64,000 nucleotides of DNA from positions 1,550,001 to 1,614,000 of the forward strand of contig NZ_JALPRP010000001.1 in the NCBI RefSeq assembly GCF_023195915.1. The letters are read 5' to 3'. A program made the translations under genes and the position numbers. This DNA comes from Methanoculleus sp. 7T. Lineage in GTDB: Archaea; Halobacteriota; Methanomicrobia; Methanomicrobiales; Methanoculleaceae. Shown here in pieces: positions 39,931 through 44,627 of this stretch (positions are counted from its first letter, which is position 1; every line of letters begins with the position of its first letter). The notes under the pieces are model-generated. The model had not been told where the DNA came from and made no database searches. It was given only the letters and a program-made list of their open reading frames with translations.

Positions 39931-40159
39931 GGTTCGCTCTTCCTCTGCTTAGCAAGAGTTTCAAACTGGGTAATATATACTTTTCTAATATATAATAACG
40001 TAAAAATAACCCTCGATCGATAGAATATCGGATGAGAAATTCCGGTTCGAAAAAAAGAGTTCGAAAATGCGCCTATCAAACTACCAAAAGTGATATATAA
40101 CGTTAAGGTCGGAACGCCATCCGACACCTAATTACCCATGCAAGCGCATAGTAAGAATA
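39931..40159. promoter_or_regulatory. Divergent promoter region of the NifH-like cluster
   Basis: 229 bases, much more AT-rich than the surroundings. TATA-like elements occur at 39971-39994 (both directions) and at 40091-40100 (TGATATATAA), the latter about 60 bases before the NifH-like ATG. Two direct copies of TTCGAAAA lie at 40046-40053 and 40060-40067, and ATAACGT occurs at 39995-40001 and 40097-40103. These are possible regulator-binding sites. Confidence 0.5.
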
Positions 40160-40978
40160 ATGAAACAGATCGCCCTCTACGGGAAGGGTGGAATCGGGAA
40201 ATCCACTACTGCAGCAAACCTATCGGCAGCACTCGCAGGGGAAAGGCTCGACATCCTGCAGATCGGCTGCGATCCGAAGCACGACAGTACCCGCATGCTG
40301 ATGCACGGGACCTGGATCCCGACGGTGCTCGACCTCATCCGGGAGCGCGGGGACGAAAACATCACCGTCGATGATGTGGTCTACCGGGGCTTCCGGGGGG
40401 TGCGCTGTGTGGAGGCGGGCGGCCCCGAACCAGGTATCGGATGCGCCGGCCGGGGGATCATTGCAACGTTCCAACTCCTCGAACGCCTTGATGCCCTCAA
40501 GGGCGATGTGATCGTCTACGACGTCCTCGGAGACGTCGTCTGCGGCGGGTTTGCGATGCCGATGCGCGAAGGATACGCGCAGGAGATCTATCTCGTCACT
40601 TCCGGGGAACTGATGTCGATTTACGCGGCAAACAACATCGCAAAGGCCATCGCCCGCCTCTCGCGCCGGGTGCGGAGCAGGTGCACTCTCGGAGGCGTGA
40701 TCTGCAACGCAAAAAACATCGAGGGCGAAGAGGACTTGGTTCGGGAGTTCGCCCGCCGGATCAACTCCCGGCTCATCGCCTACATCCCCCGGGACCGGGT
40801 GGTGCAGGTTGCGGAACTCAACCGGCAGACGGTCGTCGAGTACGCCCCCGAGTCGGACCAAGCCGCGGTCTATCAAGAACTCGGGCGCACGATCTACGGA
40901 AACCGGAAGACGAGTATCCCCACCCCCCTCGAGATGGATGAGCTCGAATCCTTCGCCCTCGAATTCGTCCAGGTTTGA
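40160..40978 (+). CDS. cfbC: NifH-family iron protein (CfbC-like ATP-dependent reductase)
   Basis: 272-residue homodimeric ATPase of the nitrogenase iron-protein family that passes electrons to a component-1 partner. P-loop GKGGIGKS is at residues 8-15. The [4Fe-4S] ligands are Cys95 in GCAGRGI and Cys128 in [10 protein letters not shown]. It lacks nif genes around it and looks like the methanogen group that includes CfbC, the reductase for Ni-sirohydrochlorin a,c-diamide in coenzyme F430 synthesis. It could instead serve only the component-1 pair next to it. Its end overlaps the next gene by 41 bases. Confidence 0.85.
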
Positions 40979-42011
40979 GGGGTGCACCCTCACCGGAGCG
41001 CTCTCGGTGCTCACGGAGGTACGGGACGCCGTCTGCATCATCCACGGTCCGGCAGGGTGTGCGCACCATAACTTCTCCCTCCTTCACGCCACCCTGCTCT
41101 CGAACGACCGGCTCGACGTCCCTCACCTCCTCTCCACCCGCCTTACGGAGAACGATATCATCTTCGGGGGCGAAGAGGCGCTGGAAAGGACCGTTGCGCG
41201 GGCGCTCTCGCTCTCTCCGGCGCCGGCCTCCGTCTTCGTCCTCTCGACCTGCATCGTAGAGACGATCGGGGACGACGTCGCGGCCGTCTGTGCGAAGGCG
41301 CGGAGAGTCCCGGTAGTCTCGGTGCCGACCGCAGGGTTTCTCGGCGGGGTCTTCGAGACCGGGGTCAGAAACGCCCTCTCCGCCGTGGCGTCGCTCGCCC
41401 GGCCCGGGACCGATATAACGCTCTCGGCGAACCTGATCGGAGAGAAGAACCTGGAGTACGGCGTCGACGAGAACGCGGCCGAGATCGCACGCCTCCTCGG
41501 CCGGCTCGGCATCGGGGTCAACCTCAGGTTCGTGCGGGGGATCGGCACCCCCGATCTCGGGCGCCTCGGGTCCGCGGCCCTCAACGTCCTCCGGGAGCCG
41601 GCGCTCCGGCCGGTCGGCGAAGAACTCCGGGGGAGGTTCGGCACCCCCTTTGTGGACTCGTTCCCGACCGGCCTAACGGGGACATGCCGTTTCCTTGAAG
41701 AGGTGGGCCGCATCTGCGGCATCGACGCCTCCGCCGCCGTCGAGGAGGAACGCGCCTACCAGACGGCGATGCTTGAGGGGTTCGCCGACATCGCGGGCAG
41801 CAAGGTATGCTTCCAGCCCGCCCATCCGGCGCTCAGGGCCGATCCCGATGCGAAGACCGTCTGCGCCGAGTGCGCCGGAGCCCTCGATCTCACCGTTGTG
41901 CCGGGCGGGGCCGGCATACCGTTCCCGTATCCGGCGCCGGTCGGGACCGCCGGGCTCCGTCGGATGCTGCACCGGTGGAGGACGCTGATCCGGGAGGAGA
42001 GGCGGAGGTGA
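40938..42011 (+). CDS. Nitrogenase component-1-like protein, NifD-type
   Basis: 357-residue member of the nitrogenase component-1 superfamily. Cys16 (GCTLTGA), Cys41 (HGPAGCAHH) and Cys105 ([11 protein letters not shown]) are spaced 25 and 64 residues, close to the P-cluster ligand spacing of NifD (26 and 66). A second-domain signature, SANLIGEKN, is present. The third Rossmann domain seems reduced, and the protein ends in an Arg-rich helix after a CAEC pair. The start inside the iron-protein gene implies coupling. It lacks the HGPxGCCF-type signature I associate with CfbD, so it may be a distinct subunit. Confidence 0.8.
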
Positions 42012-42152
42012 AGGAACAGCGGGTGCCGGTCCGACAACCTCGAGATCGGGATGGCGGCACAGTCAGTGATACTCAACCCATCCGGTGGGCTCCTCATGAT
42101 GTCTTTTAAATATCTGGTGCACAGAGAAGAGACCACCGGAGAGAGTGCCAGT

Positions 42153-42626
42153 ATGTTTGAACGCATCTTGTTTCCAACGGACTTTTCAGAGCCCTCCATG
42201 AAGGTGCTGGGCTACATCCCCGCACTCCGGGAGGCAGGAACCCGCGAGGTGGTCCTCGTCCACGTCATCGACCAGAAGGAGGTTGCGCTGATCGCCTCAG
42301 GGGGGCAGGGATTCCTCGGGACGGTGCCCGATCAAGAGACCGAGGCCCAGCGAGAGCTGCGGGAAGAGATCCACCACCGGATCATCGATATCCGTCGTGC
42401 GCTCGAGAGGCAGGGCCTTGCGGTGATCGTCCGGATGCCCATCGGCAGCCCGGGAAAGGAGATCGTGACCGCGGCCGATGCGGAGGGGGCCTCGCTCATC
42501 GTCATCGGTTCGCACGGCCGGTCGAACATCCGCGACCGCCTGCTCGGGACGGTCTCCGAATACGTGGTCAAGAACGCCCACCAGCCGGTCTTGGTCATCA
42601 AGCGGGATGTGGCGGCGCCGAAATAA
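42153..42626 (+). CDS. Universal stress protein (UspA family)
   Basis: 157-residue Usp-fold protein. It starts MFERILFPTDFSEPS and has the ATP-binding signature GSHGRSNIRDRLLGTVSEYV near residue 130. It has its own promoter (TTTTAAATATC near 42105) and sits between the two component-1-like genes. Role unclear; ATP-binding stress response is the family theme. Confidence 0.92.
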   Translation: MFERILFPTDFSEPSMKVLGYIPALREAGTREVVLVHVIDQKEVALIASGGQGFLGTVPDQETEAQRELREEIHHRIIDIRRALERQGLAVIVRMPIGSPGKEIVTAADAEGASLIVIGSHGRSNIRDRLLGTVSEYVVKNAHQPVLVIKRDVAAPK

Positions 42627-42709
42627 TCACCGTCTTTTCCCCCGGAGCACCGCCGTACAGGGAAAAGACCGTCTTTTATATCCCCGCACCGCCATGATCT
42701 TGTAGATCA

Positions 42710-43858
42710 ATGCCGGACGACCATCACACACCGTGCGAAAACCCGCTCTGGCCCTGTGCGATGACCGGGGCGGTCGCCTGCTTGGCCGGGTTCGAGGACG
42801 TCGCCGTCATCGTCCACGGTTCGAGCGGATGCTACTTCTACCCGGCATCCCTCGTCGGCGTCCCCATCCACGGGACCTTCCTCGTCGAGAACGAGGTCAT
42901 CTTCGGAACCGAATCTCGCCTCCGGGAGGTGATCGGGGAACTTGGCGATCGGTATTCCCGGATAGCCGTGGTCAACACCTGCGTGCCCGCCATCATGGGT
43001 GAGGATACCGGAAGCCTGGCCCGAGACGGGCGGATCCTCGTCGTCGACAGCCCCGGGTTCCTTGGGGACCTCGAGGCCGGGTATCACCGGGCGCTCGCGG
43101 AGGTCGCGCCGGAGGTAGACCCCGATGCCCCCGGCGTCAACATCGACGGCGTCTGCCGCACCGACCCGTTCTGCCGGGGCAACACCCTTGAGGCACGGCG
43201 GCTGCTCAACCTGGCCGGGGCGGCCGTCGGCACCACGTTCTGCTTGGACCGCTACGCCGCAACCCGCCGGGCGGCGCCTCTCACCGTCGGCACGAACCCC
43301 GACCTCGCGAGCGGCGTCGGGACGTGGTGCGGCTCGCTCCTCGGCCTCGACGCCGTCGACGAGACCTTCGCCGCGCTCGCCGCCGTGGTCGACGGCATCG
43401 AGACCAGGCCGATCGAGGAGGAGATTGCATGGGCCGACGCCAAGATCAAAAAGGCGTGCGACAAGTACCTCCGCAGGTTCGACCCGCCCCGGGTGGCGAT
43501 CTGTGCCGGCCGCTCCTACGCCGATTTCGCCGCAGGGATGCTCAAACAGTATCTCGATGCCGATATCGCCTGCATCGCGGCCAGAAACGATGCCGCCTCC
43601 CGGACGGCCGACTTCTCGACCGTCCGGGGCATGATCCGGGACGCAGAACCCGACCTGATCCTCGGCTCCTCTTATGAGCGGGCAATCTGCGGCGACGCCG
43701 CGTTCGTCGGGCTGACGTCGCCGCTCCGGGGTAAGGTCCTCCTGCACTCCCGGGCGGTGGCAGGGGTCGAAGGGGCGCTCTGGCTGATGGACGAGGTGCT
43801 CAACGCCTGCACGAACCGAAACCGGCGCCCGCGGAGCCCCGGTAAGGACTCTCTTTGA
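42710..43858 (+). CDS. Nitrogenase component-1-like protein, NifK-type partner
   Basis: 382-residue second component-1 homologue. Cys16 (WPCAMTGA), Cys41 (HGSSGCYF) and Cys91 (NTCVPAIMGED) are spaced 25 and 50 residues, comparable with NifK (25 and 58). Unlike the NifD-type neighbour it keeps a full third domain with a PRVAICAGRSYADF strand and a C-terminal PDLILGSSYE segment. It is preceded by a TATA-like CTTTTATATC at about 42673, so it has its own promoter. It probably pairs with the upstream NifD-type protein; substrate unknown. Confidence 0.8.
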   Translation: MPDDHHTPCENPLWPCAMTGAVACLAGFEDVAVIVHGSSGCYFYPASLVGVPIHGTFLVENEVIFGTESRLREVIGELGDRYSRIAVVNTCVPAIMGEDTGSLARDGRILVVDSPGFLGDLEAGYHRALAEVAPEVDPDAPGVNIDGVCRTDPFCRGNTLEARRLLNLAGAAVGTTFCLDRYAATRRAAPLTVGTNPDLASGVGTWCGSLLGLDAVDETFAALAAVVDGIETRPIEEEIAWADAKIKKACDKYLRRFDPPRVAICAGRSYADFAAGMLKQYLDADIACIAARNDAASRTADFSTVRGMIRDAEPDLILGSSYERAICGDAAFVGLTSPLRGKVLLHSRAVAGVEGALWLMDEVLNACTNRNRRPRSPGKDSL

Positions 43859-44315: not shown

Positions 44316-44417
44316 GTCGGCGAGGCCGCTGTGCCGCCATAAGGTATTTAAAATCCGGTGAGCACTGGAGTGCCGGCCTGTCCGTACGGGCAGGCCGATA
44401 TGAGGGGGGAGAAGAGT

Positions 44418-44627
44418 ATGACACATTACGGCGGGTACGCCGCACACGGTATGCTCCTCGAGAGGATGTTTGATCTCCTCGACGAGGACCAGATGCGGCA
44501 GTTGATGATCCGGATGATCGAGTCGCGCATCAAGATGAAAGAGCACCGGATCGAGATGATGCAGTACAAGGTCGAGACGTATAAGATGGCACGCGAGATG
44601 CTCCAGGCAGGCGCGAAGCGGAAGTGA
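44418..44627 (+). CDS. Small Met-rich helical protein
   Basis: 69 residues, about one sixth methionine, predicted as two long amphipathic helices (LLERMFDLLDEDQMRQLMIRM and MKEHRIEMMQYKVETYKMAREML). Basic C-terminus, no signal peptide. GGGGGAGAAG precedes the ATG. No family recognised. It has its own TATA-like TAAGGTATTTAAAATC at about 44340-44355 and a downstream T-tract. Confidence 0.7.
   Translation: MTHYGGYAAHGMLLERMFDLLDEDQMRQLMIRMIESRIKMKEHRIEMMQYKVETYKMAREMLQAGAKRK

Follow-up and report, generated by a model that had tools for sequence, protein, structure and literature searches.

Which reaction is served by a nitrogenase-type iron protein when the genome of a methanogen encodes it next to two different component-1 proteins and contains no other nif structural genes? 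The question is raised by a 64,000-nucleotide stretch of DNA from Methanoculleus sp. 7T (contig NZ_JALPRP010000001.1, positions 1,550,001 to 1,614,000 of the forward strand), hereafter the window, which encodes a NifH-type iron protein followed by an alpha-type and a beta-type component-1 protein, here named D2 and K3. Methanoculleus is a genus of the Methanomicrobiaceae within the Methanomicrobiales, and the source genome, that of a methanogen, measures 2.6 Mb. A previous sequence-only reading had taken the three genes for a dedicated three-component nitrogenase-like reductase of a tetrapyrrole or of a sulfur or nitrogen compound. In this study, the iron protein was identified as CfbC of the cofactor F430 pathway, which is presumably common to D2-K3 and to the F430 enzyme CfbD; D2 and K3 were found to be inherited as one unit across the order, and they probably constitute a CfbC-dependent two-subunit reductase.

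Clades of NifE/N-like proteins with three Cys per subunit and no ligands of the iron-molybdenum cofactor (FeMoco) were reported in 2012 without a function (Dos Santos et al., PMC3464626) and may include D2-K3. The ligand pattern is the same, and neither an order-wide CfbC-linked operon nor common use of CfbC with CfbD is described there (PMC3464626). No description of a CfbC-linked D/K pair, or of its common use of CfbC, in Methanomicrobiales was found in the literature searched, which left most subscription journals uncovered, so that an earlier mention is possible. Among nitrogenase-like proteins there is also a 'group VI', whose classification is said to rest on Meheust et al. 2020. This group has been labelled as putative tetrapyrrole cofactor biosynthesis (PMC9391474).

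Identification of two distinct component-1 proteins

The arrangement described from the letters is present in the sequence: a NifH-like open reading frame (ORF) with a P-loop (GKGGIGKST), Cys95 and Cys128 overlaps the 357-aa D2 ORF, and the 382-aa K3 ORF follows about 700 bases on. Both component-1 proteins exceed the PF00148 cut-off of 28.6 bits by a wide margin (Table 1), which places them in the nitrogenase component 1 superfamily. They had been held to be two different proteins, neither of them CfbD, and this was borne out: the CfbD model TIGR03282 gave 49.3 bits for D2 and 43.1 bits for K3 against a cut-off of 268.4, a true CfbD is encoded elsewhere, and the pair is co-inherited. The assignment of D2 or K3 as CfbD was therefore rejected. 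The models of BchN, BchB and BchZ gave 63.3 bits at best, and their cut-offs are all 324 or higher. A nitrogen-fixation cluster was also rejected, the genome having only three component-1 genes and one NifH, and the FeMoco Cys being absent.

The best NCBIfam match of both proteins was the nifE model TIGR01283 (107.9 bits for D2, 48.2 bits for K3), which would suit a NifEN-like role as scaffold or chaperone in the maturation of a complex iron-sulfur (Fe-S) cluster with the help of CfbC, for instance for the activation complex of methyl-coenzyme M reductase (MCR); L-cluster-like clusters and NifB are used in MCR activation (PMC12176620). We consider such a role unlikely. Both proteins fall far under the nifE cut-off of 505.1, the L-cluster ligand place has no Cys, and Methanospirillum and one further genome (G129) are methanogen genomes with NifB and CfbD and without D2-K3, which shows that D2-K3 is not generally required for MCR activation.

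The iron protein is CfbC

The iron protein passes the NCBIfam CfbC model NF033200 (419.9 bits, cut-off 402) and lies narrowly below the nifH model (389.7 bits, cut-off 394.35). CfbC orthologues from four other genera, in the operon or orphan, scored 406-422 bits with the CfbC model. No second NifH is encoded in the genome, in which the next PF00142 match reaches 51 bits, and 14 of the 16 D2-K3 genomes searched gave a single match to the CfbC query at E 1e-40 or better. The canonical CfbD, for which a search elsewhere in the genome had been proposed, is located at G000:C1:1964472-1965518 (505.5 bits) with a CfbE-like gene adjoining, and CfbD was above the cut-off, likewise at a separate locus, in all 26 Methanomicrobiales genomes checked. 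In a sister genome cfbA, cfbE, cfbD and cfbB form one cluster from which cfbC is absent (gene names assigned by eye). F430 synthesis depends on CfbC. Since only one CfbC is encoded and CfbD is present, we infer that the lone CfbC also powers CfbD, ATP-dependently; judged by the operon, it presumably serves D2-K3 too. The idea of a dedicated three-component enzyme does not agree with this result, because the only iron protein of the genome would be common to CfbD. In ANME-2a (anaerobic methanotrophic archaea), in contrast, cfbA, cfbE, cfbD and cfbC are found together (PMC12622379).

D2-K3 and CfbCD are alike in the same CfbC iron protein, in a compact component 1 of about 350 aa and in the lack of FeMoco ligands. 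CfbD differs in that it is homodimeric, has its gene elsewhere together with cfbA, cfbE and cfbB, and lacks the first P-cluster-position Cys; D2 and K3 are not one protein but two, both far under the CfbD model cut-off. An accessory or variant CfbCD reaction on Ni-sirohydrochlorin a,c-diamide, for example with another redox or nickel state and partly duplicating CfbD, would be in keeping with the common CfbC, with the CfbD-like compactness and with the fact that loss of D2-K3 leaves CfbC and CfbD. It appears improbable, however, since CfbD is intact and under stronger constraint in every checked D2-K3 genome, and the extra Cys, the separate clade and 100% paired inheritance in complete genomes fit a distinct job better.

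One genome of genus g31 (G141) lacks CfbC, D2 and K3 of the operon altogether. Its only NifH is divergent (L212:7609-8367, plus strand; 329.4 bits against the CfbC cut-off of 402) and presumably stands in for CfbC with CfbD.

Cysteine ligands and the active-site position

Three N-terminal cysteines had been singled out in each protein, correctly as it proved: Cys16/41/105 in D2 (spacing 25/64) and Cys16/41/91 in K3 (spacing 25/50) show 100% conservation among 41 orthologues that represent about 30 genera. The positions of the set are those of a P-cluster, all six sharing alignment columns with the P-cluster ligands of NifD and NifK. In the first of these columns D2 and K3 have Cys and five CfbD rows have Ser, which agrees with the earlier statement that CfbD lacks this Cys. 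The place of the FeMoco ligand Cys275 is occupied in D2 by Glu or Asp, never by Cys. As to FeMoco His442, the C-terminal half of D2, which aligns poorly with NifD, has no His that is invariant. With six P-cluster-column Cys kept and a carboxylate at the Cys275 place, the interface Fe-S site of D2-K3 looks complete, and the active-site metallocofactor site does not.

NifHDK and NifEN resemble this system in the alpha/beta pair, the H-D-K gene order and, for NifDK, the six P-cluster-position Cys; D2-K3 differs from them in having no FeMoco Cys ligand, in shorter chains, in separate clades and in a genome without other nif structural genes. The non-nitrogen-fixing relatives MarHDK and IsrHDK likewise have an alpha/beta pair and the P-cluster Cys set. 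In the Mar type, the alpha subunit retains the cofactor Cys and its gene adjoins NifB/NifX-type and sulfur genes; neither is true of D2-K3. D2-K3 could also be imagined as using CfbC to reduce a small compound of sulfur or nitrogen, in the manner of the methylthio-alkane and isethionate reductases, on an [Fe8S9C]-type cofactor made by NifB: the alpha/beta architecture with six P-cluster-position Cys is that of MarDK, NifB is encoded in the genome, and Mar and D2 are both on the alpha side of the tree. Nevertheless, this seems to us an unlikely alternative, because the cofactor Cys of Mar, NifD and NifE is replaced by Glu/Asp in D2, because NifB is equally present where D2-K3 is absent and is there explained by MCR activation (PMC12176620), and because the operon, unlike Mar-type loci, has no recurrent NifX, sulfhydrylase or sulfur-transport gene. 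The presence of NifB, found both with and without D2-K3, was discarded as an uninformative discriminator.

A solitary component-1 protein of about 396 aa was also observed, its gene lying downstream from the cfbA-E-D-B cluster in some Methanomicrobiales (L203:7926-9116, minus strand; L204:6854-8128, minus; L206:6674-8206, plus; L231:7992-9170, minus; L233:3505-4692, plus). It has no obvious partner subunit, and it contains all three P-cluster-position Cys plus a Cys at the FeMoco Cys275 position; it could be a candidate single-gene (homodimeric?) holder of an [Fe8S9C]-type cluster.

Co-inheritance and distribution of D2 and K3

The sequence-only reading depended on the two proteins occurring together in other genomes, and they do. 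Using E below 1e-50 as the criterion of presence, both D2 and K3 were detected in 200 of 232 Methanomicrobiales genomes and neither in 25; five had K3 alone and two D2 alone, each of these seven being a draft assembly in about 190 contigs or more. In six genomes, G129 and five that we take to be Methanospirillum, exactly D2 and K3 are missing with CfbC in place and the flanks unchanged (an FprA-like gene on the upstream side, CfbC preceded by phosphoribulokinase or TrkH and followed by a protein of about 140 aa). This exact joint absence indicates that the pair behaves as one unit, whose loss leaves CfbC and CfbD in place.

Scores with a D2 profile were 357-519 bits for the orthologues in Methanomicrobiales, and the next best among 393 Halobacteriota genomes was 187 bits. 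In a wider search for the D2 family in 84,980 species genomes, the best 80 of 170 related loci were listed; every group-naming title among these 80 was Methanomicrobiales, four being titled only 'Euryarchaeota', and among them the named relatives closest to the central protein include Methanoculleus, mostly at 75-84% identity. No D2-K3 orthologue was found outside Methanomicrobiales in the 393 Halobacteriota genomes or the best 80 of the 170 loci, and the family is, as far as searched, restricted to this order.

The ratios of nonsynonymous to synonymous substitution rates (dN/dS) in three genomes of the window's genus were 0.20-0.22 for D2 and K3, 0.10-0.14 for CfbD and 0.07-0.08 for CfbC. All four are under purifying selection, and D2 and K3 evolve at equal pace. 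A pair with no catalytic role of its own, either a relic or a CfbC-binding regulator, might explain at least two losses within the order; we find it very hard to credit, given that these ratios, the six invariant Cys and the order-wide conservation argue against a relic and that the full cluster-ligand set points to electron transfer.

Phylogeny, predicted folds and closest relatives

Maximum-likelihood trees recovered D2 and K3 each as monophyletic with full support, outside NifD/E, NifK/N, Mar and CfbD. In the tree without CfbD and Bch rows, the NifE part of the NifH-NifE fusions is the sister group of D2 (99/96); the grouping of K3 with the NifN-like partner of the fusions is weaker (85/72). 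The deep branching order of D2 with CfbD and Bch is unsettled.

AlphaFold2 models of both proteins were obtained with high predicted local distance difference test (pLDDT) values (Table 1). The best Protein Data Bank match of both models was BchB of dark-operative protochlorophyllide oxidoreductase (DPOR), with Z 36.2 over 368 aligned residues for K3 and Z 30.4 over 329 for D2, at a root-mean-square deviation of 3.1 each, followed by NifN, MarK, MarD and nitrogenase beta chains with Z about 28 to 33. A fold common with BchB does not show function. DPOR (BchL/BchN/BchB) also has a heterodimeric component 1 without an active-site metallocofactor, and its BchB is the closest solved fold of D2 and K3. 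It differs in a four-ligand (3 Cys + Asp) [4Fe-4S] cluster and a dedicated BchL, and D2 and K3 are far under the BchN and BchB cut-offs. A chlorophyll pathway is not expected in a methanogen.

The NifH-NifE fusions, proteins of about 730-760 aa with a NifN-like partner (FusN), occur in Methanosarcina- and Methanospirillum-type genomes (L191, L192, L193, L194, L195, L220, L221 and L229). They are the closest sequence relatives of D2 in the alpha tree and likewise have no cofactor Cys; they differ in the fused iron protein, in a partner that keeps one of the three Cys and in the linked FecBDE and, often, chelatase genes. A FecBDE-type transporter is adjacent at seven of the eight fusion loci scanned, and CobN-, CbiK- or BchI-like genes lie within the fetched stretch at six of the eight. 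The fusion loci thus apparently represent an uncharacterised tetrapyrrole pathway. Replacement of D2-K3 by the fusion in Methanospirillum was considered and is unsupported, since one genome (G203) has neither and another (G113, for one) has both.

Proposed reaction and the case for a tetrapyrrole

The architecture of D2-K3 is well supported; its complex formation, cluster type, electron path and substrate are those that we infer. In Methanomicrobiales, CfbC would work with two catalytic components. One is the homodimeric CfbD, whose gene lies elsewhere with cfbA, cfbE and cfbB; the other is the D2-K3 heterodimer, probably an alpha2-beta2 tetramer. Electrons would pass with ATP hydrolysis from the [4Fe-4S] cluster of CfbC to an Fe-S cluster at the D2-K3 interface, bound by up to six Cys; the cluster would hand them on to an organic substrate lying in the cavity equivalent to that of FeMoco in nitrogenase. 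Candidate substrates are an F430 or sirohydrochlorin derivative, or damaged or oxidised F430 for re-reduction. Repair of oxidised F430, or an order-specific extra modification of F430, would be an attractive possibility. The portion of the review PMC9081873 that deals with modified F430s names some Methanococcales, ANME-1 and an ethane oxidiser, and none there is named for Methanomicrobiales.

With regard to the substrate, the earlier alternative of a tetrapyrrole or a sulfur or nitrogen compound can be narrowed, and only its first part was favoured here. Glu/Asp at the Cys275 place, BchB as the closest fold and relatives that lie mostly in tetrapyrrole-chelatase clusters tip the balance slightly towards a tetrapyrrole and disfavour a sulfur or nitrogen compound; the chelatase setting of the fusions is the main pointer, by association with relatives. 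Several points weigh against a tetrapyrrole. No tetrapyrrole gene was found beside cfbC-D2-K3 in the neighbourhoods examined. A full six-Cys set is usual in metallocofactor enzymes, and the known tetrapyrrole reductases have four-ligand [4Fe-4S] clusters. The Cys loss of FusN makes the analogy with the fusions incomplete, and the grouping of D2 with the fusion, supported by 96 in a quick tree, fell to 26/1 in a careful tree with Bch, CfbD and K-type rows. The top rank of BchB may also partly reflect the short D2 and K3 chains without nitrogenase insertions. Taken as a whole, the proposal that D2-K3 is a heterodimeric reductase driven by CfbC and ATP, with an Fe-S cluster at the interface, no active-site metallocofactor and a tetrapyrrole substrate, has, in our judgement, about an even chance of being right.

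The distribution of D2-K3 across a large methanogen order, together with the iron protein of the F430 pathway, would mean that organisms important for global methane carry out a reduction that is energy-costly and so far unrecognised. The system is also relevant to the origin of nitrogenase, since it combines CfbC of the F430 pathway with an alpha/beta pair in which a P-cluster-like site is present and the FeMoco Cys is absent. A bolder and rather doubtful proposal is that D2-K3 survives as an intermediate form between CfbCD and nitrogenase, a CfbC-powered heterodimer with a six-Cys P-cluster site and no active-site metallocofactor; the P-cluster site would then be older than FeMoco-type catalysis, and the enzyme would carry out an undescribed, order-specific ATP-driven tetrapyrrole reduction. 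Surveys of nifH that take this cfbC as a sign of nitrogen fixation would be misled (compare pseudo-nifH, PMC8597730). Natural transformation and gene deletion in Methanoculleus thermophilus are reported in PMC9081873, and as this species belongs to the genus of the window, the proposed function of D2-K3 is directly testable.

Organization of the locus

The coordinates of the genes, ligand codons and putative promoter elements were listed in Table 1.

Table 1. Features of the cfbC-D2-K3 locus, numbered from the first letter of the window
Feature	Position	Strand	Remarks
TATA-box-like stretch gtgatatataac upstream of cfbC	40090..40101	+	by eye only
cfbC, NifH-type iron protein, 272 aa	40160..40978	+	NF033200 419.9 bits (cut-off 402); sole NifH of genome
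D2, alpha-type nitrogenase component-1 protein, 357 aa	40938..42011	+	PF00148 184.3 bits; orthologues order-wide; model pLDDT 92.6
D2 Cys16 codon, P-cluster position 1	40983..40985	+	invariant; NifD ligand column
D2 Cys41 codon, P-cluster position 2	41058..41060	+	invariant
D2 Cys105 codon, P-cluster position 3	41250..41252	+	invariant
D2 Arg219-Glu220 codons, site of NifD FeMoco ligand Cys275	41592..41597	+	Arg-Glu or Arg-Asp family-wide, no Cys
Universal stress protein (Usp) gene between D2 and K3	42153..42626	+	PF00582 101.7 bits
TATA-box-like stretch tcttttatatc upstream of K3	42672..42682	+	by eye only
K3, beta-type nitrogenase component-1 protein, 382 aa	42710..43858	+	PF00148 129.0 bits; co-occurrence with D2; model pLDDT 91.0
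K3 Cys16 codon, P-cluster position 1	42755..42757	+	invariant
K3 Cys41 codon, P-cluster position 2	42830..42832	+	invariant
K3 Cys91 codon, P-cluster position 3	42980..42982	+	invariant

The cfbC and D2 ORFs overlap by 41 nt in the window and by 41-44 nt in several orthologous loci, which supports the D2 start chosen in the sequence-only reading; an overlap of these two ORFs was present at 38 of 40 loci. D2 and K3, separated by 698 bp in the window, are on the same strand with less than 60 bp between them in 34 of the 40 loci, and a tight iron protein-D2-K3 operon is the arrangement in most other genera. The Usp gene, a complete one that had been overlooked, probably does not belong to the enzyme, since most other genera have D2 and K3 side by side. 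If functional, the TATA-box-like stretch before K3 would make separate transcription of this gene possible. A scan with bacterial promoter and terminator consensus sequences, which are unsuited to archaea, gave nothing above chance. The recurrent neighbours (FprA-like, phosphoribulokinase, TrkH, LeuB/C/D-like and MutS) gave no functional clue, being on the opposite strand or away from the operon, and look like background gene order.

In-frame stops were flagged in a few orthologues (e.g. G156, G174 and G231), and the ORFs at those loci are nearly full length. An 89-aa protein without a Pfam match is encoded at 44358-44627 of the window between tautomerase and acetyltransferase genes. In related genomes of the window's genus K3 is 5 kb off (L040) or inverted (L041), the distance between D2 and K3 always being within about 6 kb. 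One genome bin (G182) contains two different cfbC-D2-K3 operons on separate contigs (L073 and L074), representing either a strain mixture or a genuine duplication.

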